Origin: Thermococcales archaeon 44_46
GTDB taxonomy: Archaea > Methanobacteriota_B > Thermococci > Thermococcales > Thermococcaceae
Direction: 5' to 3'
Assembly (NCBI GenBank): GCA_001507935.1
Contig: LGET01000036.1
Location: 1 to 11,034, forward strand
Length of the DNA stretch: 11,034 nt
A program made the position numbers and the translations under genes. The first letter of the stretch is position 1. Each line of letters starts with the position of its first letter. The notes below the pieces were generated by a model. That model was not told where the DNA came from. It worked only from the letters and a program-made list of their open reading frames with translations, and made no database searches. Shown one piece after another: positions 1-11,034 of this stretch.

Positions 1-257
1 TTCCTTTTTCCACCGGTTTTAACAACAAGAGCATCTCTAAAGTCCTCCTCAATGCCAACAAATTCAAGATGCTTCTGGATAACGTGGAGAGAATCGAAGT
101 TATCATCAATTATAACCGGCAATCCCCGTGATTTCCCATAATACAGAAGACCAAGGGTCATAAGCTCAGGTATGAACGATCGGTAGTATTCAACGAGAAC
201 AATCTCGCCAAACTTTATTTTATCGACGAGCTTAAAAACCTCCTCCAAGGATTCCAA
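1..257 (-). CDS. DUF257-like protein, N-terminal part (cut by window edge)
   Basis: The minus strand reads openly from about 266 to the window edge and gives about 85 residues. They include a hydrophobic stretch ending VLVEYYRSFIPELM, then GLPVIIDDNFDSLHVIQKHL and a final KTGGKR. The pattern of a strand ending in VEY, then an IDD-x-x-D-x-LH motif, a GIEEDF segment and a K-x-GG motif resembles the DUF257 family, known to me mainly from Thermococcales. Its function is unknown, though the fold looks like a RecA/KaiC-type alpha/beta protein without an obvious P-loop in this part. The start is probably TTG at 257, because GAGGTGA at 269-263 lies 5 nt upstream. The in-frame GTG at 266 overlaps that Shine-Dalgarno sequence. 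The gene has its own TATA-type promoter and sits downstream of hydA in the same direction. Confidence 0.7.
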   Translation of the reverse strand, partial: MESLEEVFKLVDKIKFGEIVLVEYYRSFIPELMTLGLLYYGKSRGLPVIIDDNFDSLHVIQKHLEFVGIEEDFRDALVVKTGGKR

Positions 258-293
258 AACTCTCACCTCTATAATTAAGTCAATGCTCTTTGC

Positions 294-302
294 ATATATA
301 AC
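294..302 (-). promoter_or_regulatory. TATA box of the DUF257-like gene
   Basis: On the minus strand, TTATATAT at 301-294 follows AAAAGTG, a weak BRE-like stretch. Archaeal initiation about 24 nt downstream would fall near 273, giving a short leader that keeps the GAGGTGA ribosome binding site at 269-263. This fits an independent promoter between hydA and the DUF257-like gene. It is a prediction from spacing and composition only. Confidence 0.45.
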
Positions 303-315
303 ACTTTTGCACTAC

Positions 316-330
316 AAAAATAAAAAGAAG
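316..330 (-). terminator. Oligo-T terminator after hydA
   Basis: Directly after the hydA stop codon the minus strand reads CTTCTTTTTATTTTT. Such pyrimidine/T-rich tracts without a stem-loop are the usual intrinsic terminators in Thermococcales. It would end the hydBGDA transcript just before the promoter of the DUF257-like gene. Confidence 0.55.
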
Positions 331-332
331 AG

Positions 333-1583
333 TCACAGTCTAACAACGTGCACAGAACAGGAAATGCAAGGATCAAATGCCCTTACAGTCTCTTCCAGCT
401 TCTGAAGGAAAGTCACTTCATCTGAGCTTCCATATCTCTTTTTAGCCTCTTCGTAAAGGCTGAGCTCCATCATGGCATGGTTAAACGCGGTTGGAGTTAT
501 TATGTTGGAATACGCTATGTTGCCCTTTTCATCAATCCTGTAGTGGTGCAGCAAAACGCCTCTGGGTGCTTCCACGTATCCGATTCCCTCTCCTTCCCGA
601 GGCTCTACTGGGACGTTTTCACCTTTAATTCCTCTGTCGAGGAGATTTTGAGCTATTTCCTTTGTTCTCTCAAGGGCATATACAAGTTCAATGGCTTGAG
701 CCAGATTGTTTAAGCTTGCGTATCCCTGAGAGAGCTTTTCTTTGTATTCTTCATAAAGGTGCTTTGCCATCGGGGTGAGGGCTTCGTGCTTCAGCATTAC
801 CCTGGGAAGGGCCCCCACCATGAATACTTCTCCCTTGTACCTGCTCTGCTTTGCAAAGCTGTAGGGCAGGGTTTTTTCTTCAATGTGCTGGAAATAGTCA
901 AAGTGCTCTCCATCGTCAGCAATCAGCTCATCCCCATAGAGGTAGCCGTTAACTGCAACGTAATGCTCTGCTTTTGCTCCCAAATACTCCTGATCCGCAA
1001 ATATGCCCACTGCCCTCCTTGCAAGCTTTAATAATGCCTCACTTTGTCTTTCCATTCTTTCAAGCTCTTCTATTGTTGGATATCTCCCAAATCCACCGGG
1101 CTTGACGTTTATGCCGTGTATCTCCCTTCCACCAATAACTTCCCGGATGTAGTTGCCAAACGCCTTGATTGTAAGGCCTTCTTTTACTACCTCTCCATGT
1201 CTGCTAGCCATTCTTATTGCGTCAGCATAGCCAAATAAGTCTGGGGCCACTAAGAGGTACAGGTGTAAAGCATGGCTTTCGATGAGTTCTCCTAGAAGGC
1301 CGAGTTCTCTTAGGAGCATTATCTCCTCTGGAACTTCAACTCCCAGAGCCCGCTCTATTCCAAGAACTGAAGCGACTGAATGCGAGAGATAGCAGATTGC
1401 ACATATTCTAGCCTCTAAATCCGGCACATCCCAGTAGTGTCTTCCAAGGGTGAGGAGTTCGAAGAACCTTGGCCCTTCAAATATTTTTACTCTTACGTCC
1501 TTCACTTCCCCGTTCTCAATGATAATCTCCGCTCCTCCATTCCCTTCCACCCTTGTAAATGCCTCAATTTCAATACTCACCAT
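333..1583 (-). CDS. hydA: Soluble [NiFe] hydrogenase (sulfhydrogenase) alpha subunit, catalytic
   Basis: This is the large, NiFe-carrying subunit of a cytoplasmic group 3b hydrogenase, which interconverts H2 and protons plus electrons. The 416-residue product has the N-terminal L1 motif R-I-C-A-I-C-Y-L-S-H (C61, C64, H68) and the C-terminal L2 motif D-P-C-I-S-C-S-V-H (C406, C409, H412). All four NiFe cysteine ligands are therefore present. Four residues (VVRL) follow His412 and match the short tail removed by a maturation protease in this family. EGPRFFE near residue 36 and ESHALHLYLL near residue 103 are also typical of the family. Length is close to the P. furiosus homologue of about 428 residues, as I recall it. 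It is the last gene of the operon. Its ATG at 1583 overlaps the hydD end by 7 nt and is preceded by GGGGTGAG. The gene looks intact. Confidence 0.93.
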   Translation of the reverse strand: MVSIEIEAFTRVEGNGGAEIIIENGEVKDVRVKIFEGPRFFELLTLGRHYWDVPDLEARICAICYLSHSVASVLGIERALGVEVPEEIMLLRELGLLGELIESHALHLYLLVAPDLFGYADAIRMASRHGEVVKEGLTIKAFGNYIREVIGGREIHGINVKPGGFGRYPTIEELERMERQSEALLKLARRAVGIFADQEYLGAKAEHYVAVNGYLYGDELIADDGEHFDYFQHIEEKTLPYSFAKQSRYKGEVFMVGALPRVMLKHEALTPMAKHLYEEYKEKLSQGYASLNNLAQAIELVYALERTKEIAQNLLDRGIKGENVPVEPREGEGIGYVEAPRGVLLHHYRIDEKGNIAYSNIITPTAFNHAMMELSLYEEAKKRYGSSDEVTFLQKLEETVRAFDPCISCSVHVVRL

Positions 1584-2317
1584 CTGAGCTCACCCCTTGC
1601 AAAAGTCTTGAACTTTCTCCTGATGTACTCCTCGTCATAGCCAAGCTCCTTGAGAATCTCGAACTCACTTGCAGGGTTTGCTTCCTTCGGTAGAGGTCCC
1701 CTGCACCCAATACAGCCAAGGTGGCATTTTATACATGCAGCGTTGCATCCGCCGAGCGTTATCGGACCCAAACAGGGAATGCCTCTCTTAACGAGGACGC
1801 ACTCGTATTCATTGAGCTTGCACTCCACACAGACCGGATAGTCCTTTGTAGGTGGCTCAACACCTTTTGCCAAATTCATGAGCACCTGATAAAGTTCATC
1901 CTTATCATAAGGGCAGCCCGGCAAGGCGTAATCAACAGCGACGTGCTGAACAATTGGAGTTGAATCCAGAGCCTTCATTGGGTTTGCTCTCGTTCCATAA
2001 ACCCTCTCAAGCTTGTCCCTTATTTTTCCCTCAACACTCGCCTGAACGTCTCCATGGGTGGCACACGTCCCAAGGGCAATGAGATAATTGGAGTGGTTTC
2101 TCGCATAGTGGAGCAAATTAAGGTCTCTCTGAGTTGATACGCTCCCGGTAACTATAGCCACGTCGAGGGTATCGTGCTCTCTAAAGCTCGAAGCCATGTG
2201 GAACTCCTTTATCTCGTAGAATTCGAGGAGATCAAAGAGCCTTTCGTAAAGGAAGAGAATATTGAGGGCACATCCCCCACAATCGGTCAGCTCAAAAACA
2301 CCAAGCTTAAGCATCAT
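1577..2317 (-). CDS. hydD: Soluble [NiFe] hydrogenase delta (small) subunit, three [4Fe-4S] clusters
   Basis: This small hydrogenase subunit passes electrons between the NiFe site of HydA and the flavin subunit HydG. In a 246-residue product the proximal-cluster ligands are visible as C13 and C16 (TDCGGC), C85 (GTC) and C135 (PGCP). A cysteine-rich C-terminal half (C163, C166, C173, C182, C191, C195, C198, C202, C205) can hold two further [4Fe-4S] clusters. The open frame extends to a TTG at 2347. However, ATG at 2317 forms an ATGA overlap with the hydG stop and has AAGGGGG a few nt upstream, so it is preferred. The second ATG at 2314 is a close alternative. There is no Tat signal, as expected for a cytoplasmic enzyme. 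Translation is probably coupled to hydG and hydA. Confidence 0.92.
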   Translation of the reverse strand: MMLKLGVFELTDCGGCALNILFLYERLFDLLEFYEIKEFHMASSFREHDTLDVAIVTGSVSTQRDLNLLHYARNHSNYLIALGTCATHGDVQASVEGKIRDKLERVYGTRANPMKALDSTPIVQHVAVDYALPGCPYDKDELYQVLMNLAKGVEPPTKDYPVCVECKLNEYECVLVKRGIPCLGPITLGGCNAACIKCHLGCIGCRGPLPKEANPASEFEILKELGYDEEYIRRKFKTFARGELRW

Positions 2318-3180
2318 ATCAGCCCCCTTGTAGATAGAGCGTCCCAATAAGTGAAGACAGGGCCGTCTTTACACACGTATTTAATGGACGTGCTCGTTCC
2401 CACGATGCAGTGTCCACATTTTCCAACCCCACAGCGCATTCTCCTTTCGAGGGTCATGTAAATCCTTCCCGGGGAGAGCTTCCTATCCAAGAGCTCCTTG
2501 ATAATGTATTTGTACATCACCGGTGGGCCGCAGATTAGCGCATAGGTGTTTTCGACGTCAAAGGTTTCTCCCCTGAAGAGATCTGTGACAACTCCCTTGC
2601 ACACTCTCGGCGAATAACCCTTCTCTAGGTATATACATGAAGGGCTTTCCACTTCGTAGGCAAGCTTCACATGACAGTTCATGTCCTCCCCATGTTTGAG
2701 GAGGTGTATCACCTCATCCCTGAAAAGAATGTCCTCATAGGCCTTTGTACCGTAGAAGAGGTAGATTTTCTCGTATTTCCCTGTATCCAGAGCATACCAC
2801 AGCACTGAGCGGAGGGGAGCCATCCCTAATCCTCCAGCCACCAGAATTAAAGTCGAACCTTCCATCTTTTCCATTGGAAAGCCATTGCCATAAGGTCCCC
2901 TAATTCCAATCACATCGCCTTCCTTTAGAGTGTGCATGTATTTTGTCATTCTCCCAACCCTTCTAACACAGAGCTGGAAGTAACCTTCCCTCGTGGGAGT
3001 TGAGCACAGGCTTATCGGAAACTCTCCAAAGCCTCTTATGTCAACTATAACAAACTGACCGGGCTTGTATTTGAAGCTTCTGTTGATTTCGGGATCGACA
3101 AAGCGGAGTGTGAAAAGCTTTTCCCTTGAGGTGAGCTCCTTAACTTCCAAAATCCTCGCATCATGTGTTTGAAAGGTCAT
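2314..3180 (-). CDS. hydG: Soluble [NiFe] hydrogenase gamma subunit, FAD and NAD(P)-binding
   Basis: This flavoprotein subunit exchanges electrons with NADP(H) or NAD(H), and in sulfhydrogenases it works with HydB. The 288-residue product has a ferredoxin-NADP reductase-like layout. An N-terminal FAD barrel carries PGQF at 40-43. A pyridine-nucleotide domain carries AGGLGMAPL at 115-123 and CGPPVM at 217-222. A C-terminal [2Fe-2S] loop has C250, C255, C258 and C270 (RCGVGKCGHC then C). All expected motifs are intact. The ATG at 3180 overlaps the hydB stop by 4 nt (ATGA), with GGAGGGG upstream, which fixes the start and suggests translational coupling. That coupling makes the frameshift in hydB relevant to expression of this gene. 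NADP preference is assumed from the group 3b family and cannot be read with certainty here. Confidence 0.92.
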   Translation of the reverse strand: MTFQTHDARILEVKELTSREKLFTLRFVDPEINRSFKYKPGQFVIVDIRGFGEFPISLCSTPTREGYFQLCVRRVGRMTKYMHTLKEGDVIGIRGPYGNGFPMEKMEGSTLILVAGGLGMAPLRSVLWYALDTGKYEKIYLFYGTKAYEDILFRDEVIHLLKHGEDMNCHVKLAYEVESPSCIYLEKGYSPRVCKGVVTDLFRGETFDVENTYALICGPPVMYKYIIKELLDRKLSPGRIYMTLERRMRCGVGKCGHCIVGTSTSIKYVCKDGPVFTYWDALSTRGLI

Positions 3181-4183
3181 TGTAACCCCTCCCTTACCTC
3201 ATCAAGAACCTTAACATGCTCTATCCTAGCCGGACAGAACTCATCACATCTTCCGCATCCAACGCAGTTGAAGCCTGCTGAGGGGTCAAAGTAGCTCTTG
3301 CAGTAATAGCGGTGCCTGAATCTATCCAAGCGGGTAGGTCTAAAGTTATGCCCTCCAGCAACTAAGCCGTGGCTCTCCATGAAGCAAGAGTCATATCTTC
3401 TAACTCTCACTGCCTCATAGGCGTTCATCCAGAGGTCACAAACCTCGTAACATCTGCACGTTGGACAGACCATGTTGCAGTTGCCGTATCCAAGACATAT
3501 CTTCTCGTACTTTTTCCACACCGGGCTGTTGTAGGCCAAATCAAGGATATCTTCAAGGCCTTTCTTGTTAAGATGCTTCTTGAAGGAATTTGCTCTCTTC
3601 TCTTCAAATTCTCTGAAGTTCTTTACGTCCTCCTCAGTAAGCTCTTCAAAGAGCTCTTCGTTTTCCCACGCTATCTCGTGACCCCTAACACTGCCAACTC
3701 TCACCAACCAGCCGTCAGGGAGTTCGTGGAGAAACAAATCAAAGCCGTGCATTGCAAAGTCCGTGCCCAGGCTTTTGCAGAAGCAGTACTCATCGGGCAT
3801 ACAGCTAATGCCGATTATTATTGAATTTTCTCTCCTCTTTTTGTAATATGGATCCACAGGCTCTGCAAGATAGACCTTATCAAGTATCTCCAATCCGTGT
3901 ATATCACATGAATGAACCCCAAATAGAACTATTGGTTCGGCTCCATCGCTCTCCTCCCATTTACCCCCCCCCTAAGTCGCAGCATCTCATCCTTAGGCCT
4001 CACAAAGAACTTCTTCGGAGGAAGCATTGTACGGGTATAATCAAAGGCTATCTCTGGAGGGTTCTCTACATGTTGAAAGGAGTATATGTTGCCCTTCTTA
4101 GTTGGAGCATACAATTTGCCCCAGTTCTTAAGAGAATTGAAGAATTCTTCAAAATTTTCCTGAGGTAGCTTTACATATCGCAA
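3177..4183 (-). pseudogene. hydB: Soluble [NiFe] hydrogenase beta subunit, 2[4Fe-4S] protein, frameshifted in a G9 run
   Basis: HydB is the iron-sulfur subunit linked to electron transfer and S0/polysulfide reduction in sulfhydrogenases. The gene lies in two frames. The N-terminal part runs from TTG 4183 (MRYVKLPQEN..., GGGTGG 5 nt upstream) to R71, just before a run of nine Gs on the minus strand (3972-3964). The rest (KWEE...PIVLFGVHSCDIHG..., to 3177) lies in another frame, where an upstream TAG blocks entry. Ten or seven Gs would restore one protein of about 335 or 334 residues. The second [4Fe-4S] motif is intact (C307, C310, C313, C317). The first reads C230-x-x-Y233-x-x-C236-x3-C240, with Tyr in place of the second Cys. 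The cause could be a homopolymer sequencing error, a real mutation, or slippage re-reading one G. A TTG at 3893 could restart translation but would lose about 97 residues. Confidence 0.82.
3964..3972 (-). other. G9 homopolymer, site of the hydB frame change
   Basis: The plus strand carries nine consecutive Cs here, so the mRNA-sense strand reads A-GGGGGGGGG-TA. Continuing in the N-terminal frame runs to a TAG at 3931-3929. Moving to the conserved downstream frame needs a net gain of one base or loss of two. Re-reading one G (-1 slippage), or polymerase slippage to ten Gs, would both give full-length HydB. Long G runs are also typical places for read errors and for phase variation. Confidence 0.85.
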
Positions 4184-4188
4184 GATTA

Positions 4189-4194
4189 CCACCC
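4189..4194 (-). promoter_or_regulatory. Ribosome binding site deciding the hydB TTG start
   Basis: GGGTGG at 4194-4189 on the minus strand lies 5 nt upstream of TTG 4183-4181. That TTG begins the segment RYVKLP, which matches the N-terminus I recall for the P. furiosus beta subunit. The open frame continues upstream, but into the promoter and operator, so the further residues are unlikely to be translated. Confidence 0.55.
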
Positions 4195-4240
4195 GAGTAT
4201 GTTCTTCAGGATTTATATTTGTAAAGAACGGATTTAAGGA

Positions 4241-4250
4241 TTTTTTAAAC
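4241..4250 (-). promoter_or_regulatory. Probable TATA box of the hydBGDA operon
   Basis: GTTTAAAAAA on the minus strand lies about 60 nt upstream of the hydB start and directly downstream of the SurR-type site. Initiation about 24 nt further on would give a leader of roughly 35 nt that keeps the ribosome binding site. A second AT-rich candidate, AAATATAAAT at 4220-4211, is less likely because it would start transcription after or within the ribosome binding site. Confidence 0.4.
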
Positions 4251-4261
4251 ATAAGGTGACC

Positions 4262-4278
4262 AACCAAATGTTGCAAAC
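4262..4278 (-). promoter_or_regulatory. SurR-type redox regulator binding site shared by both operons
   Basis: On the minus strand the sequence is GTT-TGC-AAC-ATTTG-GTT. This is an exact match to the extended SurR motif GTTn3AACn5GTT described for Pyrococcus. SurR is a sulfur-responsive regulator that activates hydrogenase operons when sulfur is absent and releases DNA when its CxxC motif is oxidised. The site lies upstream of the TATA element of hydB on one side and upstream of the TTTATAAA of the nuoE-like gene on the other. That is the position expected for activation of both. Binding itself is inferred. Confidence 0.7.
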
Positions 4279-4295
4279 ATATACTTTAGTGTACA

Positions 4296-4303
4296 TTTAT
4301 AAA
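4296..4303 (+). promoter_or_regulatory. TATA box of the nuoE/nuoF/fusion operon
   Basis: TTTATAAA is a near-ideal archaeal TATA element, 49 nt upstream of the chosen nuoE start. Initiation about 24 nt downstream would fall near 4325, leaving a leader of about 20 nt that contains GGTGAT at 4335-4340. The SurR-type site ends 17 nt upstream of the box. Confidence 0.65.
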
Positions 4304-4334
4304 CGTTGACGTAGATAAAGGGAATAGAATGGTG

Positions 4335-4340
4335 GGTGAT
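4335..4340 (+). promoter_or_regulatory. Ribosome binding site deciding the nuoE start
   Basis: GGTGAT is complementary to the archaeal 16S 3' end and is followed by a 4-nt spacer and ATG 4345. The same GGTGAT plus 4-nt arrangement precedes the fusion gene at 6612. It favours ATG 4345 over the in-frame GTG at 4336, which lies inside the site. Confidence 0.6.
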
Positions 4341-4344
4341 AATC

Positions 4345-4809
4345 ATGAATTTGAAGTTTGGATACATTTATAGTTATGAGCCGAATCCCAGTTCTTTGAT
4401 TCCATTGTTGCAGAAAACTCAGGAAATTTTTGGTTATCTCCCAAGAGAGGCCCTAGAGGAGATTTCAAAATATTTAAAGGTGCCCCTGAGCAGAGTTTAT
4501 GGCGTCGCCACATTCTACGCCCAGTTCCGTTTTGAGCCCCTTGGAAAGTATGTCGTCAAAATCTGCCATGGAACAGCTTGCCACGTTAACGGAGCTGTCA
4601 ACATTTCTCAGGCAATTACAGAAGAAGTTGGAGTTGAAGAGGGCCAGACAACCGAAGATGGGCTTATAACTCTTGAAAGGGTCGCCTGCCTTGGCTGCTG
4701 CAGTCTTGCACCGGTCATCATGATCAACGAGAAGGTCTACGGAAAATTAACGCCTGAGAAGGTTAGGAAGATAATTAAAAACCTCAAGGAGGGGAAGCTC
4801 GATGTCTGA
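4345..4809 (+). CDS. nuoE: NuoE-like [2Fe-2S] thioredoxin-fold subunit
   Basis: This is a 154-residue homologue of complex I NuoE (24 kDa subunit) and of the HydC/HndA subunit of NADH-linked and electron-bifurcating hydrogenases. The N-terminal helical part has the family motif SRVYGVATFYAQF at about 49-61. The thioredoxin-like domain has the [2Fe-2S] ligands C74 and C79 (CHGTAC), then C115 and C119 (CLGCC). Length and motif spacing are normal, so the protein looks complete. It normally binds next to NuoF and supplies an off-path or branch cluster near the FMN. It is the first gene of the plus-strand operon. Its stop overlaps the nuoF-like start by 8 nt, which indicates coupled translation. 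It is divergent from hydB across the shared operator. It could equally be called HydC or BfuC, depending on the complex it joins. Confidence 0.9.
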   Translation: MNLKFGYIYSYEPNPSSLIPLLQKTQEIFGYLPREALEEISKYLKVPLSRVYGVATFYAQFRFEPLGKYVVKICHGTACHVNGAVNISQAITEEVGVEEGQTTEDGLITLERVACLGCCSLAPVIMINEKVYGKLTPEKVRKIIKNLKEGKLDV

Positions 4810-6610
4810 GATAAAGGCGATAGCTGTGGGAATGAACTCGTGCGGCATAGCGGCCGGTGCCAAGGAGACGTACGAGGCAATAAAACGCGAGCTGGAAGAG
4901 AGAGGGTTGAGTGTTAAGCTCAAGATAGTCGGCTGCGTCGGCATGTGCTACCGCGAACCTCTCGTGGATATAATCACCGAGGACGAAATAATCACCTACG
5001 GTCACGTCGACCCGAAGAAGGTCCCCAAGATCATCGAGGAGCACGTTATCAAAGGTAAGCCCATCGAGGAGTGGGTAGTGAAGAGGGACTGGTGGGAGGA
5101 CGGGGAGAGAAGGACGTGGGACGTTGACGGCTACTTCGCCAAGCAGAAGAAGATAGTGCTTGAGAACTCGGGCTACATAGATCCAGAAAACATAGACGAG
5201 TACATTCAAGCTGGCGGTTATGAGGCCCTGAAGAAGGCCCTCCAGATGAAGCCCGAGGAGATAATAGACGTCATCATCAAGTCTGGCCTCCGCGGAAGGG
5301 GCGGCGCCGGCTTTCCGACGGGCCTGAAGTGGAAGTTCACGCGCGAGGCGAAGGGAGACGAGAAGTACGTCATCTGCAACGCCGATGAGGGTGATCCGGG
5401 AGCCTTCATGGACAGGAACGTGCTTGAGGGAGACCCCCACCGGGTCATAGAGGGGATGATAATCGGTGCCTACGCCATTGGGGCTACCAAAGGCTTCATA
5501 TACGTCCGTGCCGAGTACCCGCTCGCCATAAAGCGCCTCAAAATAGCACTCCAGCAGGCGCGTGAGAGGGGTTTCCTCGGGGAGAACATCCTCGGTTCTG
5601 GCTTCTCCTTTGACATCGAGATCAAGGAAGGTGCCGGAGCCTTCGTCTGCGGTGAGGAGACTGCTTTGATTGCTTCCATCGAGGGCAAGCGCGGGATGCC
5701 GAGGCCGAGGCCGCCATATCCCGCCCAGAAGGGCCTCTGGGGCAAGCCTACCAACATAAACAACGTCGAGACCTGGGCGAACGTCCCGTGGATAATAAAG
5801 CACGGCTGGGAAGCCTACGCTTCCCTCGGAACCGAGAAGAGCAAGGGCACCAAGGTCTTCGCCCTCTCGGGCAAGATAAAGCACGGCGGCAACGTGGAGG
5901 TGCCCATGGGCATCACCCTGAGGGAGATACTCTACGAGATCGGAGGCGGCACGAAGACCGGCAAGAGGATTAAGGCCGTCCAGCTTGGAGGTCCATCTGG
6001 CGGGTGTATACCAGAGTATCTCTTCGACACTCCTGTGGATTATGAAAGCGTCACTGCAACTGGCGCGATAATGGGGAGCGGCGGAATGGTGGTTATGGAC
6101 GAGGACACCTGTATGGTCGACGTCGCCAAGTTCTTTTTGGACTTCACCGTGAAAGAGTCCTGCGGCAAGTGCACCTTCTGCCGGCTGGGGACGAAGAGGA
6201 TGTGGGAGGTTCTGGATAAGATAACCAACGGTCAGGGGACAATGGATGACCTAAAGGAGCTCGAGGAGCTTGCCACAAAAGTGAAAGCCGGCTCCCTATG
6301 TGGTCTCGGACAAACTGCACCGAATCCTATTCTTACAACGCTTCGCTACTTTATGGATGAATACATCGCCCACGTGAAAGACAAGAGGTGCCCGGCCAAG
6401 GTGTGTAAACCCCTCATAAAGTATGTCATAATACCCGACAAGTGCACAGGATGTACAGCGTGTGCAATTTCCTGCCCTGTCAAAGCAATAAGCGGAGAGA
6501 AGCTTAAGCCGCACGTAATAGACCAAGAAGCTTGCATAAAATGCGGAACGTGCTATACTGTGTGCAGGTTTGACGCCATAGAGATAGTTGATGCCTACGA
6601 GGGTGATTGA
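4802..6610 (+). CDS. nuoF: NuoF-like NADH/FMN subunit with N-terminal [2Fe-2S]-type and C-terminal 2[4Fe-4S] domains
   Basis: The 602-residue product has the architecture of HydB/HndC of NADH-linked and bifurcating hydrogenases rather than of plain NuoF. Residues 1-95 form a small thioredoxin-like domain with C14, C45 and C49; the usual second Cys of a C-x4-C pair is not seen. The FMN and NADH sites are GRGGAGFPTGLKW (165-177), NADEGDPGAFMDR (193-205) and GAGAFVCGEETALI (277-290). The N3-type [4Fe-4S] cluster has C454, C457, C460 and C500. The C-terminal domain has two complete motifs (C548, C551, C554, C558 and C578, C581, C584, C588), which in relatives exchange electrons with ferredoxin. 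The start has GGAGGGG upstream and overlaps the preceding gene. About 5281-6000 is much richer in GC than its surroundings, suggesting recombination. The enzyme would oxidise or reduce NAD(H). Confidence 0.92.
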   Translation: MSEIKAIAVGMNSCGIAAGAKETYEAIKRELEERGLSVKLKIVGCVGMCYREPLVDIITEDEIITYGHVDPKKVPKIIEEHVIKGKPIEEWVVKRDWWEDGERRTWDVDGYFAKQKKIVLENSGYIDPENIDEYIQAGGYEALKKALQMKPEEIIDVIIKSGLRGRGGAGFPTGLKWKFTREAKGDEKYVICNADEGDPGAFMDRNVLEGDPHRVIEGMIIGAYAIGATKGFIYVRAEYPLAIKRLKIALQQARERGFLGENILGSGFSFDIEIKEGAGAFVCGEETALIASIEGKRGMPRPRPPYPAQKGLWGKPTNINNVETWANVPWIIKHGWEAYASLGTEKSKGTKVFALSGKIKHGGNVEVPMGITLREILYEIGGGTKTGKRIKAVQLGGPSGGCIPEYLFDTPVDYESVTATGAIMGSGGMVVMDEDTCMVDVAKFFLDFTVKESCGKCTFCRLGTKRMWEVLDKITNGQGTMDDLKELEELATKVKAGSLCGLGQTAPNPILTTLRYFMDEYIAHVKDKRCPAKVCKPLIKYVIIPDKCTGCTACAISCPVKAISGEKLKPHVIDQEACIKCGTCYTVCRFDAIEIVDAYEGD

Positions 6611-6611
6611 C

Positions 6612-9479
6612 ATGGTCAAGGTCATCGTAAATGGTAAGGAAGTTGACGTCCCCGAAAACAAGGTGCTCCTCCAAAGCCTGAGGGAAAAAGGAGAACACAT
6701 CCCAGGAATGTGCTACGATTTTGAGCTCGAGCCCTATGGATCATGCCGCCTTTGCTTAGTCGAAACTCCCAGGGGGATTGCAACTTCATGTACACTCAGG
6801 CCAGTCGAAGGTCTGGCAATAGAAACGTTAAACGAAAAGATAATTTCAATGAGAAGAACCGCCCTTGAGCTAATGCTTTCCGACCATTACGGAGATTGTA
6901 TAGGCCCATGCCAAGATGGGTGCCCGGCGCACAGTGATGTTCAGGGATATCTTGCACTAATTGCGATGGGCAAATACCATGAGGCAGTCAAACTCATGAA
7001 GGAGAAGTACATACTCCCAGCGGTTCTTGGAAGGGTTTGTCCGGCTTTCTGTGAAAGCAAGTGCAGAAGGAACCTCGTAGAGGAGCCCCTCGCGATAAGA
7101 CAGCTCAAGAGGTTTGCGGCTGATTACGATCTCGAACACGGACCATGGATGCCTGAAATCCCGCCATCGACCGGGAAGAGGGTTGCGGTGGTTGGAGGTG
7201 GGCCGGCTGGTCTGGCGTGCGCCTACTACCTCAGGACGATGGGCCATGAGGTAACTATAATCGAGGCCATGCCAGAGCTTGGTGGAATGATGCGCTACGG
7301 AATTCCCCCCTACAGGCTCCCGCGCGACGTCCTTGACAAGGATATAGCGACGGTCATTAACACGGGTATTGAGGTCAAGACCAACACCATGCTTGGAAGG
7401 GATATAACGCTTGAAGAGCTCAGGAAAGAATACGATGCCGTTTTCCTAGCCATTGGAGCATGGAAAGGTAAGAAAATGGGCATAGAGGGAGAAGAGCTTG
7501 AAGGTGTCATGCAGGGCATCGAGTTCCTCAGAAAGGTCAACATGGGCGAAGAAGTAAAGCTCGGCGAACGGGTTATCGTTGTCGGCGGTGGAAACACTGC
7601 TATGGATGTCGCAAGAACGGCTTTAAGGCTTGGCGCAAAGGTTACTGTTGTTTACAGGCGTTCAAGGGAAGAAATGCCTGCAAACCCAAGGGAAGTTGAG
7701 GAAGCAGAAGAGGAGGGAGTTGAGTTCATATTCCTTGCCAACCCTGTTAAAATCCATGGCAACGGCAAGGTAGAAAAGGTTGAGCTAATTAGAATGAAGC
7801 TGGGCGAGCCAGATGAAAGCGGAAGAAGGCGTCCAATACCCATAGAGGGCTCAAACTTCTTCTTGGAAGCTGACAACGTCATCCTTGCCATCGGCCAGTA
7901 CTGCGATGATTCCTTCTTGAAGGCGCTCGGCATAGAGGCCAAGCGTGGAAAAGCCGCGGTAGATGAGATAACATTACAGACAAGCCTTGAAGGGGTTTTC
8001 GCGGGAGGAGACCTTGTCTTAGGACCTTCAACTGTCATAGAGAGTATAGCAACTGGAAGAAAAGCCGCGTTGATGATTGACCTCTACCTCAAAGGCAAGC
8101 TCAACAAGGCAAGGGAAGCGCTCCTTGAGCCTTCAAAGCACATAGAGGAAATAGTGAAGGATGACGACCTATACAGAGTTCTTTTCGACCTGAGACCATA
8201 CAACCACTGGAAAGACGTCACCGAAAAGGACTATGAGCATGTGGAGAAGAAGCCAAGGGTTAAAGCAAAATTAAAGCCTGCTGAGGAAAGAATTAAAGGA
8301 TTCGTTGAAGTTGAAGAAAGCCTAACCGAAGAGGAAGTGCTTAAGGAAGCAGAGAGATGTATGAGCTGTGGATGCATGGAGGTCTTCAGGTGCAAGCTTA
8401 GAGAGTATGCCACGCTTTACGAGGCAAAGCAGGACAGGTTTAAGGGCGAGACAAACCGCTTTGAAATCGATGAGACACATCCAAACGTTGTCCTCGACAA
8501 CAACAAGTGTGTTCTGTGCGGCAGGTGCGTCAACTTAACCCACGAGATAGCTGGAGAAGGAGTTGTGGACTACCTCTTCAGGGGATTCACAACAAGAATT
8601 TCGCCTCCTCTTGGAGAGACACTTGGAGATATGGACGGGGTTTTCATAGGGGACATGATTGACGTCTGTCCAACCGGAGCTATAAGCGAAAAACTGCCGT
8701 TCATAAAACCCGGCCCGTGGAAGACAACTCCAGTAAAAACTGTCTGCAACGGGTGCAGCTTTGCATGTGAAATGAACATCGAGGTTTATAACGATATGCT
8801 CGTTAGAGCTTCCTCAGTGGCAGGATGGAATAACGGGCACCTCTGTGACATCTGCCGCTTTAAGAGGCCGTGGGCTGAGGATTTAACATTCCCGCTTCTC
8901 AACGGCGAAAAAGTGGAATGGGAGAAAGTCAGAGAATTCATAGGGAACCACAAGGACATTGCCCTTATATTGACTCCCGAGCTGACGAATGAGGAGATTA
9001 AGTACTTCAAGAAAGTTGCAGAGGAAAGAGGGTTCAAACTTGGAGCCTTCGTAGAGGAAGGGATTTCCACAGCAACCCCAGAGGACATAAAGAAAGCCAA
9101 GAAAGTTCTTTTAAGAGCGGACATCGAAAAGTATCCCTATCTGAAGGTGCTGCTGAAAGGCAAAGAGTTCGTGGAGGAAGACTACGAAGTTGCTGTACTC
9201 GAAGCACCTGCTGAACCACTGGAAGTACCTACCCTCATACTCCACGAAGGGGTCAATGAAGTAGGCTTGCTGAAGCTTGGAGTTAAAGGATTACCCGAGG
9301 CAGAGGCCTATGTGGTTATAGGAAAGCCCAGAAAGGAGCTAAAAGGTGATGTCTTAGCCCTTCCTTCAGGCTTGTGGGCAGAAAAAGAAGGAACCATCAT
9401 AAACGCTTTCAACATGGAGCTCAAGGTTAGCAAAGCACGTGAACCCGAATACAGCGCAAAGGATATATTCTCCCTCTAA
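6612..9479 (+). CDS. NuoG-like iron-sulfur scaffold fused to GltD/NfnB-like NADPH:FAD oxidoreductase
   Basis: The 955-residue product reads in order as follows. First is a [2Fe-2S] NuoG-type domain (C34, C45, C48, C60). Next is a double [4Fe-4S] region of the GltD/NfnB/DPD type (C96, C100, C104 and C143, C147, C151, with H92 nearby). An FAD site (VVGGGPAG, 193-200) and an NADPH site (VVGGGNTA, 323-330) follow, with YRRSREEMPA at 348-357, typical of NADPH-specific GltD proteins. Then come a cysteine cluster (C583, C586, C588, C594), an N4-like cluster (C633, C636, C639, C686) and an N7-like cluster (C712, C715, C719, C745). The last 200 residues are a shrunken molybdopterin-type domain without a catalytic core. 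The start is ATG 6612, with GGTGAT 4 nt upstream and 1 nt after the nuoF stop. An in-frame TTG at 6588 is rejected. Probable role: linking NADP(H) to NuoEF and possibly the hydrogenase. Confidence 0.88.
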   Translation: MVKVIVNGKEVDVPENKVLLQSLREKGEHIPGMCYDFELEPYGSCRLCLVETPRGIATSCTLRPVEGLAIETLNEKIISMRRTALELMLSDHYGDCIGPCQDGCPAHSDVQGYLALIAMGKYHEAVKLMKEKYILPAVLGRVCPAFCESKCRRNLVEEPLAIRQLKRFAADYDLEHGPWMPEIPPSTGKRVAVVGGGPAGLACAYYLRTMGHEVTIIEAMPELGGMMRYGIPPYRLPRDVLDKDIATVINTGIEVKTNTMLGRDITLEELRKEYDAVFLAIGAWKGKKMGIEGEELEGVMQGIEFLRKVNMGEEVKLGERVIVVGGGNTAMDVARTALRLGAKVTVVYRRSREEMPANPREVEEAEEEGVEFIFLANPVKIHGNGKVEKVELIRMKLGEPDESGRRRPIPIEGSNFFLEADNVILAIGQYCDDSFLKALGIEAKRGKAAVDEITLQTSLEGVFAGGDLVLGPSTVIESIATGRKAALMIDLYLKGKLNKAREALLEPSKHIEEIVKDDDLYRVLFDLRPYNHWKDVTEKDYEHVEKKPRVKAKLKPAEERIKGFVEVEESLTEEEVLKEAERCMSCGCMEVFRCKLREYATLYEAKQDRFKGETNRFEIDETHPNVVLDNNKCVLCGRCVNLTHEIAGEGVVDYLFRGFTTRISPPLGETLGDMDGVFIGDMIDVCPTGAISEKLPFIKPGPWKTTPVKTVCNGCSFACEMNIEVYNDMLVRASSVAGWNNGHLCDICRFKRPWAEDLTFPLLNGEKVEWEKVREFIGNHKDIALILTPELTNEEIKYFKKVAEERGFKLGAFVEEGISTATPEDIKKAKKVLLRADIEKYPYLKVLLKGKEFVEEDYEVAVLEAPAEPLEVPTLILHEGVNEVGLLKLGVKGLPEAEAYVVIGKPRKELKGDVLALPSGLWAEKEGTIINAFNMELKVSKAREPEYSAKDIFSL
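9463..9468 (+). promoter_or_regulatory. Possible TATA element for the nitroreductase gene
   Basis: ATATAT within GGATATATTC, at the very end of the fusion gene, lies about 40 nt upstream of ATG 9504. Initiation near 9490 would leave a short leader containing GAGGTG. Read-through from the upstream operon is the alternative. The signal is weak. Confidence 0.25.
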
Positions 9480-9491: not shown

Positions 9492-9503
9492 GAGGTGGAG
9501 CGT

Positions 9504-10046
9504 ATGGAGTTTTTTGAAGTAGTTAAGAGGAGGAGAAGCATAAGGCGCTTTCAGGACAAGAAAGTTCCGGAAGAATACGTGAAGAAAATCCTTGAGGCCG
9601 CTTTCTATTCGCCGAGTTCAAGAAACAGAAGGCCATGGCATTTTATAGTTGTTGATGATGGAGACCTTATCAAAAAACTGGCTCAGACTAGGCCAGCTTT
9701 GAGGTTCTTGGAGACAGCGCCGCTTGCAATAGTTGTATGTGGAGATGAGAACATAAGCTCCGCATGGGTGTTTGATGCATCTATAGCAGCAGAGCATATA
9801 CAGCTGGCGGCAACAGCCCTTGGATTAGGGGCATGCTGGGGACATGTGCTCGACAGAATGCACAGCGAAGAGAAAAGCGCAGAGGATTATATAAGAGAGC
9901 TATTGGGAATTCCAAGGCATATAAGGATTCTATGCGTCATTGGCATAGGGTATCCAGCTGAAGAGAAGCCACCTCACAGTGAAAAAGAGATAATGCCAGA
10001 CAGAGTGCATTACAACAGGTTTGGAAACTTATGGAAAATAGAATAA
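9504..10046 (+). CDS. Nitroreductase-family FMN-dependent oxidoreductase
   Basis: The 180-residue product has the hallmarks of the nitroreductase fold: KRRRSIRRF at 8-16 (FMN phosphate contact region), SPSSRNRRPWHFIVV at 36-50, and a later GLGACWGHV with a C-terminal IGIGYP segment. These small proteins bind FMN as homodimers and reduce varied acceptors with NAD(P)H. The true substrate is unknown, and none can be read from the sequence. Cys-containing segments (VVCGDEN, GACWGH) show no iron-sulfur motif. The ATG at 9504 has GAGGTG about 6 nt upstream. An in-frame GTG at 9495 lies inside that site and is rejected. It follows the redox operon by 24 nt across an oligo-T tract, so co-transcription is possible but not required. 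It converges with the next gene across a 10-nt gap. Confidence 0.85.
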   Translation: MEFFEVVKRRRSIRRFQDKKVPEEYVKKILEAAFYSPSSRNRRPWHFIVVDDGDLIKKLAQTRPALRFLETAPLAIVVCGDENISSAWVFDASIAAEHIQLAATALGLGACWGHVLDRMHSEEKSAEDYIRELLGIPRHIRILCVIGIGYPAEEKPPHSEKEIMPDRVHYNRFGNLWKIE

Positions 10047-10056
10047 AGGGACAAAG

Positions 10057-10962
10057 CTAGATAACAGCAGGGATTCCCGGAATCCTTGGGAAGGGCTGTA
10101 CCTCAGCGATGTGCTTTGCTCCAACCATATACCTAACAAGCCTCTCCACGCCGATGCCGGCTCCGGCAGAGGGCTTGAGCTTCCCAGCCTTTGCAACCTC
10201 GAGGTAAGGCCTAAAAGCTTCCAAGCTCAGGCCGCTTTCCTTAAGTTTTCTGACTATTACTTCATACTGCCACTCCCTTTCTCCACCGCTTGAAACCTCA
10301 CCATAACCTTCGGGCAATACCAGATCATAGTTCCTAAAGTGTCCCGGTCTTTCAGGGTCTTCCCTATCATAGAACTCCCTTGAGATGTCCGTTATCCAGA
10401 AAGGCTCGTCCATTGCTTTGCTTGCCTCTTCGTCGTCTCCAAACTCTTCCATTATTTCGCTCATGGTAAACCTCTTGAACGGCGCCTTAATCCTTGGCAG
10501 TCCTCTTTCCTCAAGTTCTCCCCATTTCCTTGCTTCCTTGAAAAGACCCACCATAAGCTCTTCAATCAACCCCATCACATCCTCCATGCTCGCATAGGCT
10601 ATCTCAAAGTCTAGCTGGCTAAACTCATACGCATGCCTGCCGTCGTCTCTATCCCTCTCCTCAAGCCTGATGTTCGGTGAAAGGACGAATATCTTCTCCA
10701 GTCCCATAGCTATTGCAAACTGCTTATGCAGAATCATGCTGTGCATCAGCTTTAGTCTTGTCCCATAAGCTTCAATTTCTGGGGCTCTCATTTTACTCGC
10801 TGCTGGATCTGGCCACAGGGGATCGGTTATCGAGCTAAGCATAACTGGCAAGAGCCACTTAAAGCCCTTCTTCACAAAGAAGTCTGTCATATAGTCTATA
10901 ACTTTCGTCTGTACCCTTATCACCTTTTCAATATCTCTGCTTACAAGTTGAACTGCGTTCAT
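10057..10962 (-). CDS. Archaeal asparagine synthetase related to aspartyl-tRNA synthetase (AS-AR type)
   Basis: The 301-residue product is a class II aminoacyl-tRNA synthetase catalytic core without an anticodon-binding domain. Motif 1 region is GFKWLLPVML (33-42). Motif 2 with its adjacent loop is NIRLEERDRDDGRHAYEF (97-114), followed by QLDFE. Motif 3 is GAGIGVERL (267-275). It closely resembles the Pyrococcus abyssi AS-AR protein as I recall it, including the C-terminal HIAEVQPFPR...PGIPAVI. That enzyme makes asparagine from aspartate and ammonia with ATP, through aspartyl-adenylate. The missing tRNA-binding domain argues against a true AspRS or AsnRS. The start is ATG 10962, with GGTGAT 4 nt upstream (10972-10967). 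An open extension to a TTG at 11013 is judged untranslated. There is no evident functional link to the hydrogenase region. Confidence 0.88.
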   Translation of the reverse strand: MNAVQLVSRDIEKVIRVQTKVIDYMTDFFVKKGFKWLLPVMLSSITDPLWPDPAASKMRAPEIEAYGTRLKLMHSMILHKQFAIAMGLEKIFVLSPNIRLEERDRDDGRHAYEFSQLDFEIAYASMEDVMGLIEELMVGLFKEARKWGELEERGLPRIKAPFKRFTMSEIMEEFGDDEEASKAMDEPFWITDISREFYDREDPERPGHFRNYDLVLPEGYGEVSSGGEREWQYEVIVRKLKESGLSLEAFRPYLEVAKAGKLKPSAGAGIGVERLVRYMVGAKHIAEVQPFPRIPGIPAVI

Positions 10963-10995
10963 GAGCATCACCAGTATGAGGAATTCCCGAAGTCC

Positions 10996-11003
10996 TATAT
11001 GTA
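10996..11003 (-). promoter_or_regulatory. Possible TATA element of the asparagine synthetase gene
   Basis: TACATATA on the minus strand, preceded by CACAAAA, lies about 35 nt upstream of ATG 10962. Initiation about 24 nt downstream would leave a very short leader that includes or just truncates the GGTGAT site. The fit is moderate only. Confidence 0.3.
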
Positions 11004-11034
11004 TTTTGTGCAAAAAACTTTGAAAAATTGGTAA

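Follow-up and report, generated by a model that had tools for sequence, protein, structure and literature searches.

Hydrogenase genes that face genes for NuoE-, NuoF- and NuoG-like proteins raise the question of whether the two sets encode one composite redox enzyme or two separate enzymes. The window, by which we mean the whole stretch of DNA analyzed here, has this layout; it is one entire contig of 11,034 bases from an incomplete genome assembly (272 contigs, 79% complete). The initial annotation favored a single seven-subunit enzyme and named as its alternative a separate, co-regulated transhydrogenase. That alternative is the reading supported here. With a probability of about 0.9, the window encodes two distinct enzymes whose operons flank a common operator, linked through carrier pools, and the transhydrogenase position has been refilled in relatives. 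The basis for this reading is gene identity, ligand conservation, layout, counts of what occupies the position, breakpoints and operator conservation, and bifurcation has been shown in print for a relative of the transhydrogenase.

Products of the two operons

Pfam scanning of ten window proteins confirmed the domains first annotated and the arrangement of a leftward hydrogenase operon divergent from a rightward three-gene unit at 4345-9479. The features are as follows.

3-266: DUF257 gene at the left edge of the window
333..1583, minus strand: shyA, NiFe large subunit of sulfhydrogenase 2 (NCBIfam NF040828, 789 bits, cut-off 700)
1577..2347, minus strand: shyD, NiFe small subunit (NF040831, 471 bits, cut-off 460)
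2314..3180, minus strand: shyC, FAD/NAD(P) reductase subunit (NF040830, 612 bits, cut-off 600)
3177..3893, minus strand: shyB, C-terminal two thirds (NF040829, positions 98-333 of 334)
3929..4192, minus strand: shyB, N-terminal part in another frame (tblastn of both pieces and DNA alignment to relatives)
4262..4278, minus strand, read toward shyB: candidate long SurR-type motif GTTn3AACn5GTT, kept in 65 of 66 loci
4296..4303, plus strand: TATA-like box TTTATAAA of the nfn operon, read from the sequence, 42 nt before the nfnC ATG (4345)
4345..4809, plus strand: nfnC, NuoE-like, [2Fe-2S] (PDB 9n5u_C, 312 bits; Pfam PF01257)
4802..6610, plus strand: nfnB, NuoF-like, with FMN domain and C-terminal ferredoxin domain, predicted bifurcating core (PDB 9n5u_B, 1250 bits)
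6588..9479, plus strand: nfnA (PDB 9n5u_A, 1686 bits; Pfam)
9495-10046: nitroreductase-like gene, 3' of nfnCBA
10057-11034: asparagine synthetase A gene, after the nitroreductase-like gene

Profile scores identify the leftward operon as that of sulfhydrogenase 2 (SHII, ShyBCDA) rather than SHI. ShyA, ShyC and ShyD all exceed the SHII equivalog cut-offs of NCBIfam, whereas the SHI models give them only 336, 287 and 166 bits against cut-offs of 880, 650 and 500. The enzyme is thus not the classical HydBGDA initially named, and the accompanying statement that such enzymes need only NADP(H) fits SHI, the other isoenzyme; NCBIfam labels SHII as NAD(P)-dependent. Because profile NF040831 begins at residue 13, the true start of shyD probably lies inside the annotated open reading frame.

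The window's operon differs from known SHII operons in that shyB is frameshifted. What had been taken for a whole hydB gene at 3177-3893 is merely the C-terminal two thirds of shyB (524.5 bits, below the NF040829 cut-off of 690), and the rest lies in another frame, with a likely GTG start at 4192-4190 in an open frame that extends to 4276. The frame breaks at nine consecutive C residues (3964-3972), so that a full-length ShyB is absent from the window's assembly; relatives carry both parts in a single frame. The break is either an assembly error or a mutation, which one assembly cannot separate. Because shyB is frameshifted in this assembly, the SHII of the source organism may be inactive. In another genome (G077, locus L192), shyB contains an insertion of ~930 bases (~6442-7373, reverse strand); the flanking alignments to genome G075 overlap there by 7 bases, like the trace of a small mobile element.

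The rightward unit is assigned by similarity as nfnCBA, which encodes a bifurcating transhydrogenase of the Stn/Bfu type, NfnABC. All three proteins match chains of PDB 9n5u and 9n5v over nearly their full length. These closest solved relatives are deposited with three chains, NfnA, NfnB and NfnC, one each per entry. One 102-residue stretch of each chain is matched exactly at locus L186 (genome G079), the only fetched locus to do so, where nfnCBA is divergent from shyBCDA as in the window. The window's enzyme thus shares with Thermococcus sibiricus NfnABC and 9n5u/9n5v the three subunits, domain order and ligands, and with L186 the divergent SHII neighbor. Subunit lengths are also alike (963, 602 and 154-157 amino acids for NfnA, NfnB and NfnC), and the difference from L186 lies in sequence alone, at identities of ~75%, 88% and 89%, respectively. 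The 963-residue NfnA fuses NuoG-like and GltD-like parts in one protein, with a 2Fe-2S domain, a GltD-like FAD/NADP(H) domain, a NuoG-like domain and a truncated FdhF-like end. In-frame TGA recoding in the NfnB of four genomes (G022, G025, G033 and G044) was considered and rejected because the first stop occurs at codon 598-600 and the match simply extends beyond it.

Cofactor ligands agree with this assignment. The C-terminal 2[4Fe-4S] domain attributed earlier to the NuoF-like protein was found by Pfam and by residue check (Cys 548-558 and 578-588). NfnB has the FMN domain and the B1, B3 and B4 [4Fe-4S] ligands (Cys 454/457/460/500, 548-558 and 578-588; PF01512, PF10589, Fer4). The positions that form cluster B2 in bifurcating BfuB hold Cys437, Thr475, His524, Cys530 and Cys535, all of the B2 type. 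As described in PMC9304861, the B2 His is absent from non-bifurcating homologues, Thr occupies its B2 position in about two thirds of BfuB proteins, and F182, A202 and M204 (Acetomicrobium mobile numbering) are typical of Bfu enzymes. NfnB Ala201 and Met203 correspond to A202 and M204, and F182 could not be placed in the alignment. An N-terminal [2Fe-2S] cluster (B5) of NfnB is doubtful because the first 100 residues contain just three Cys (14, 45 and 49); in Stn, PMC7483475 describes a B5 ligand Cys as replaced by Gly. NfnC is a [2Fe-2S] subunit of the BfuC type (PF01257; Cys 77, 82, 118, 121 and 122). NfnA has the GltD-like FAD/NADP(H) domain (PF07992, PF14691), and both Lys174, the Lys at cluster C7, and Arg243 are conserved. 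The proposal of a bifurcating unit for ferredoxin, NAD(H) and NADP(H) is borne out by this identity and these ligands.

Related enzymes place NfnABC in a known family. StnABC of Sporomusa ovata (PDB 8oh5) is described as having the same NuoE-, NuoF- and GltD/NuoG-like subunits (PMC7483475, PMC10482914). Lys174 and Arg243 of NfnA, near the FAD site, correspond to Lys170 and Arg239 of S. ovata StnC, and Val118 stands where StnC has Cys114 (PMC10482914). NfnA is ~200 residues shorter than its S. ovata counterpart (963 versus 1172), with part of the FdhF-like domain missing. NsoABC of Thermococcus litoralis, named as closely homologous and as having its GltD and NuoG parts fused in the same way, is described as an NADPH-dependent sulfur oxidoreductase (PMC7483475, PMC10482914); we liken it to NfnABC by description, not by sequence. 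NfnAB (NfnI) of Thermococcales catalyzes the same class of reaction; unlike NfnABC, it has two subunits and no NuoE or NuoF parts, and its FAD is reported to bifurcate (PMC10482914).

The mechanism that follows is the most likely one given the families of SHII and NfnABC, and the direction of flux in the cell is one that we infer. ShyBCDA would be a NiFe hydrogenase linked to NAD(P), in which a dedicated flavin subunit is included, and would pass electrons between H2 and NAD(P)(H). NADPH would be handled at the FAD in the GltD-like domain of NfnA, and Fe-S clusters would carry its electrons on to the NfnB FMN, where they would be split between NAD+ and ferredoxin; in reverse, NADH and reduced ferredoxin would yield NADPH. 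SHII and NfnABC would be connected by NADP(H) (and NAD(H)) as diffusible carriers, joining the pools of H2, NADPH, NADH and ferredoxin. The couples first listed (H2, NAD(H), NADP(H) and ferredoxin) stand, with their coupling most likely metabolic rather than inside one complex.

Occupants of the slot opposite the hydrogenase genes

We surveyed 94 genomes of the order. NfnB matches at E 1e-30 or better occurred in 44 genomes. A relative of NfnB in genome G003 (62% identity) is a different gene and was counted apart, and G083, whose nfnC is cut by a contig end, was added, giving 44 genomes with orthologous NfnABC. SHII-type ShyA was found in 67 genomes, as typed among the matches listed (down to ~109 bits). 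In five of these, the slot opposite shyBCDA could not be read: contig ends intervene in G036, G053, G067 and G091, and the shy contig of G003 was left out. All 62 readable slots hold a bifurcating transhydrogenase, which is NfnABC in 40 genomes and NfnAB in 22.

Linkage of the three-gene unit to hydrogenase genes across Thermococcales genomes was a check proposed at the outset. NfnABC lies opposite SHII genes in 40 of the 44 genomes that have it, the window's included (40/94 of the order), and the contrary outcome, a unit usually found away from hydrogenase genes, did not occur. Because 40 of 94 genomes have nfnABC opposite shy genes, the divergent layout is not due to chance. The association with SHII is real, and because the readable slots divide into 40 NfnABC and 22 NfnAB, it is with transhydrogenase function rather than with NfnABC itself. 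In the NfnAB slots, the small subunit is 78-100% identical to that of genome G004 and is encoded on the strand opposite shyB (22/22). The large subunit adjoins it in 19 of the 22 (split between two frames in G029 and truncated where the contig ends in G093), and in G010, G012 and G080 the small subunit stands alone on the fetched piece; in G080, no NfnAB large subunit was found at the search threshold.

Four NfnABC genomes (G024, G027, G050 and G058; 95-99% complete) have no SHII among the ShyA matches listed or in the fetched flanks. Each has another NiFe large-subunit match of ~43% identity, which is probably SHI. Because every NfnABC genome has some NiFe large-subunit match among the matches listed, the role of NfnABC may be tied to hydrogenase in general. 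One of the 40 genomes, G018, has nfnABC opposite shy remnants only: at locus L177 (10135-10883), the SHII operon is reduced to shyB and shyA fragments beside an intact nfnCBA.

These counts bear on the single-complex proposal, in which ShyBCDA and NfnABC together would couple H2, NAD(H), NADP(H) and ferredoxin in one seven-subunit enzyme. Its model is the NiFe-Bfu hydrogenase of A. mobile (PDB 7t2r/7t30), whose BfuBC core belongs to the same family as NfnBC and is fed by NiFe subunits within the complex. The conserved divergent layout is in its favor, as are the existence of NiFe-Bfu enzymes, which use an A3 route, and the statement that Tsib-type NfnA uses A3 too (PMC9304861). Against it, the solved orthologue has three chains, and NfnABC is active when purified. 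Schut et al. (2022) expressed the T. sibiricus nfn operon in P. furiosus and purified the enzyme, whose NADPH-dependent reduction of ferredoxin is reported to require NAD+ (PMC9304861); an enzyme of the NfnABC kind therefore works without added hydrogenase. The same hydrogenase stands opposite NfnAB, which has no NuoE, NuoF or NuoG parts, in 22 genomes, and NfnABC is kept without SHII in four. In Type 3 NiFe-Bfu enzymes, the NiFe subunits are fixed partners of BfuABC. The window's hydrogenase is instead encoded by a separate divergent operon as an NAD(P)-linked enzyme, and it is no fixed partner, because it faces NfnAB in 22 of 62 slots and is missing beside NfnABC in 4 of 44 genomes. Neither 9n5u nor 9n5v appears among the best 60 of the 70 PDB chains matched by ShyA. 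We give the seven-subunit enzyme next to no credence. The survey thus serves as a natural experiment on a giant composite hydrogenase: the hydrogenase stays constant while its neighbor is swapped, and the neighbor stays where the hydrogenase is lost.

Two counts sit less easily with the preferred reading of two pool-linked enzymes: the slot rule has no exception in readable loci, which is tighter than pool coupling alone demands, and the four NfnABC genomes without SHII each keep another NiFe large-subunit match.

A rule that genomes have either Nfn-Bfu or NfnAB (PMC9304861) was considered and holds for the slot, but not genome-wide, because the window's own genome carries NfnAB-like pairs and loci L003 and L004 carry nfnABC beside nfnAB. 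The additional pairs in the window's genome are at L190 (1221-3502) and L191 (4793-7062). At L003 (1077-8620) and L004 (1-11621), on metagenome-assembled contigs titled Euryarchaeota and DHVE2 archaeon, nfnABC adjoins nfnAB, and at L004 a sulfhydrogenase-like operon, below all cut-offs, and an NAD kinase gene come after. A WOR-3 bacterium contig (L007, 7736-12925) encodes an NfnABC at 58-75% identity, next to a glutamate dehydrogenase gene and genes of folate metabolism (FTHFS, FolD-like); the nine neighboring ORFs scanned include no hydrogenase.

Formate dehydrogenase as a partner was rejected, as no such domain occurs in the ten window proteins scanned by Pfam. In T. piezophilus, PMC8595942 lists Fdh3 with SHI, not SHII, under consecutive locus tags.

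A candidate shared SurR-type operator

The candidate operator at 4262-4278 has the form of the long SurR motif GTTn3AACn5GTT as defined in PMC8595942 and PMC12162507. It is separated from the likely shyB start by 69 nt and from the nfnC ATG by 66 nt. The first distance agrees with those listed for SHII of T. piezophilus (69 nt) and T. barophilus (67 nt) in the same papers. For T. piezophilus, SHII and NfnI are listed under SurR by motif and by locus tags, which are consecutive, with one long motif given at 69 and 72 nt (PMC8595942).

An exact long motif occurs within 300 nt upstream of nfn at 40/40 NfnABC-SHII loci, 21/22 NfnAB-SHII loci (the exception being G012) and 4/4 loci with NfnABC and no SHII. 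Motifs were counted in 66 of 79 loci, after leaving out nine (duplicates, off-slot pairs and flanks) and four that have no nfn gene. The 141 long motifs in these loci are all confined to the 200 nt preceding nfn (13,200 bases in total), and the remaining 853,532 bases contain none; the case for the operator rests on conservation, and kinship among the loci inflates the count of 141. The absence of long motifs elsewhere applies to the 66 loci alone, because among the excluded loci three long motifs directly precede a further nfnAB pair at L191 and one falls within an nfnB-like gene at L183. By itself, the short form of the SurR motif shows no enrichment in the window (2 occurrences against 2.15 expected), which tells against the preferred reading.

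Both operons are probably under the control of SurR, a sulfur-responsive regulator, as judged from the motif. For the window's copy, this control and its sign are presumptive. On the nfn side, the sign is unsettled, as the sources point differently: PMC8595942 counts Nfn under negative SurR control, whereas PMC7483475 describes P. furiosus NfnI as rising in sugar fermentation.

Exchange of the transhydrogenase in place

A quick tree was built from ShyA and ShyC of 61 of the 62 loci; G018, which has no full ShyA, was left out, and G055 forms one long branch. On this tree, partner type must change 9 times, and well-supported branches force at least 5 of these changes. Shuffled assignments need a mean of 18.2 changes, and none of 500 shuffles needed as few as 9.

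Comparisons between relatives locate the edges of the exchanged segment. Aligned with genome G075, which has NfnAB, the window is 88% identical in DNA over positions 1-4295 and 85% over 9502-11034, and between these flanks only a single 150-base stretch aligns, at 68%. The left breakpoint, 4295, is downstream of the operator and directly before the TATA-like box (4296-4303). Genome G078 is 95% identical to G075 up to the corresponding point, then 90% (nitroreductase) and 97% further downstream. The same pattern of flanks is seen for G039/G026 (95%, then 91%) and G084/G076 (90%, then 87%). The swaps recur and, from these alignments, look like exchanges of cassettes, which would have occurred through recombination in the flanks.

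Hydrogenase sequences do not follow the exchanges. No Shy column distinguishes the two partner types, whether among the 1281 of the order or the 1274 of the genus (11 loci), which also argues against the seven-subunit enzyme. Some columns do lean with partner type, the best single one assigning it correctly at 0.88 in the order and 0.91 in the genus, against a baseline of 0.64; this sits less easily with the preferred reading but could be caused by ancestry.

We consider it probable, as one joint reading, that the slot opposite SHII is a swap site at which, several times among close relatives, NfnABC and NfnAB have taken each other's place, through recombination in two flanks, one carrying the SurR operator and one the nitroreductase and asparagine synthetase genes. 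Selection would then keep a bifurcating transhydrogenase under SurR beside SHII, not a particular enzyme, with mechanisms that differ in that NfnABC has an FMN-FeS core and NfnAB a bifurcating FAD. The hydrogenase, operator and downstream genes would stay while the occupant changes.

Two other readings of the linkage are weakened by these results. SHII might associate loosely and transiently with whichever transhydrogenase occupies the slot, as a metabolon that passes NADP(H) locally; the slot rule (62/62 in readable loci) and the shared operator would fit. Two enzymes with different parts occupy the slot, however, while the Shy sequences stay alike, and shared regulation alone explains the linkage, which makes such an association quite unlikely. 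The operons might also be mere neighbors, kept adjacent by shared ancestry and a promoter in common without any link in function, since divergent pairs can persist through regulation only; the persistence of NfnABC without SHII in four genomes is compatible with this. After every exchange, however, the incoming enzyme has the function of the one it replaced, and both partner classes retain the operator, so that we regard bare adjacency as very improbable.

Under the preferred reading, the enzymes are known ones linked by shared control and carrier pools, and the swapping in place is the interesting part. The enzyme family, its archaeal member and its structure are already known; in the paper texts searched, we found no account of a slot rule under which two bifurcating mechanisms are exchanged in place. 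Close pairs that differ in the slot, such as G078 and G075 (flanks of 90-97% identical DNA), would allow the two mechanisms to be compared in near-identical cells. At locus L187, G078 also carries ~1.7 kb that G075 lacks, located between its nitroreductase and asparagine synthetase genes. Many slot loci have DUF257, nitroreductase-like and asparagine synthetase A genes as neighbors, whichever transhydrogenase is present.
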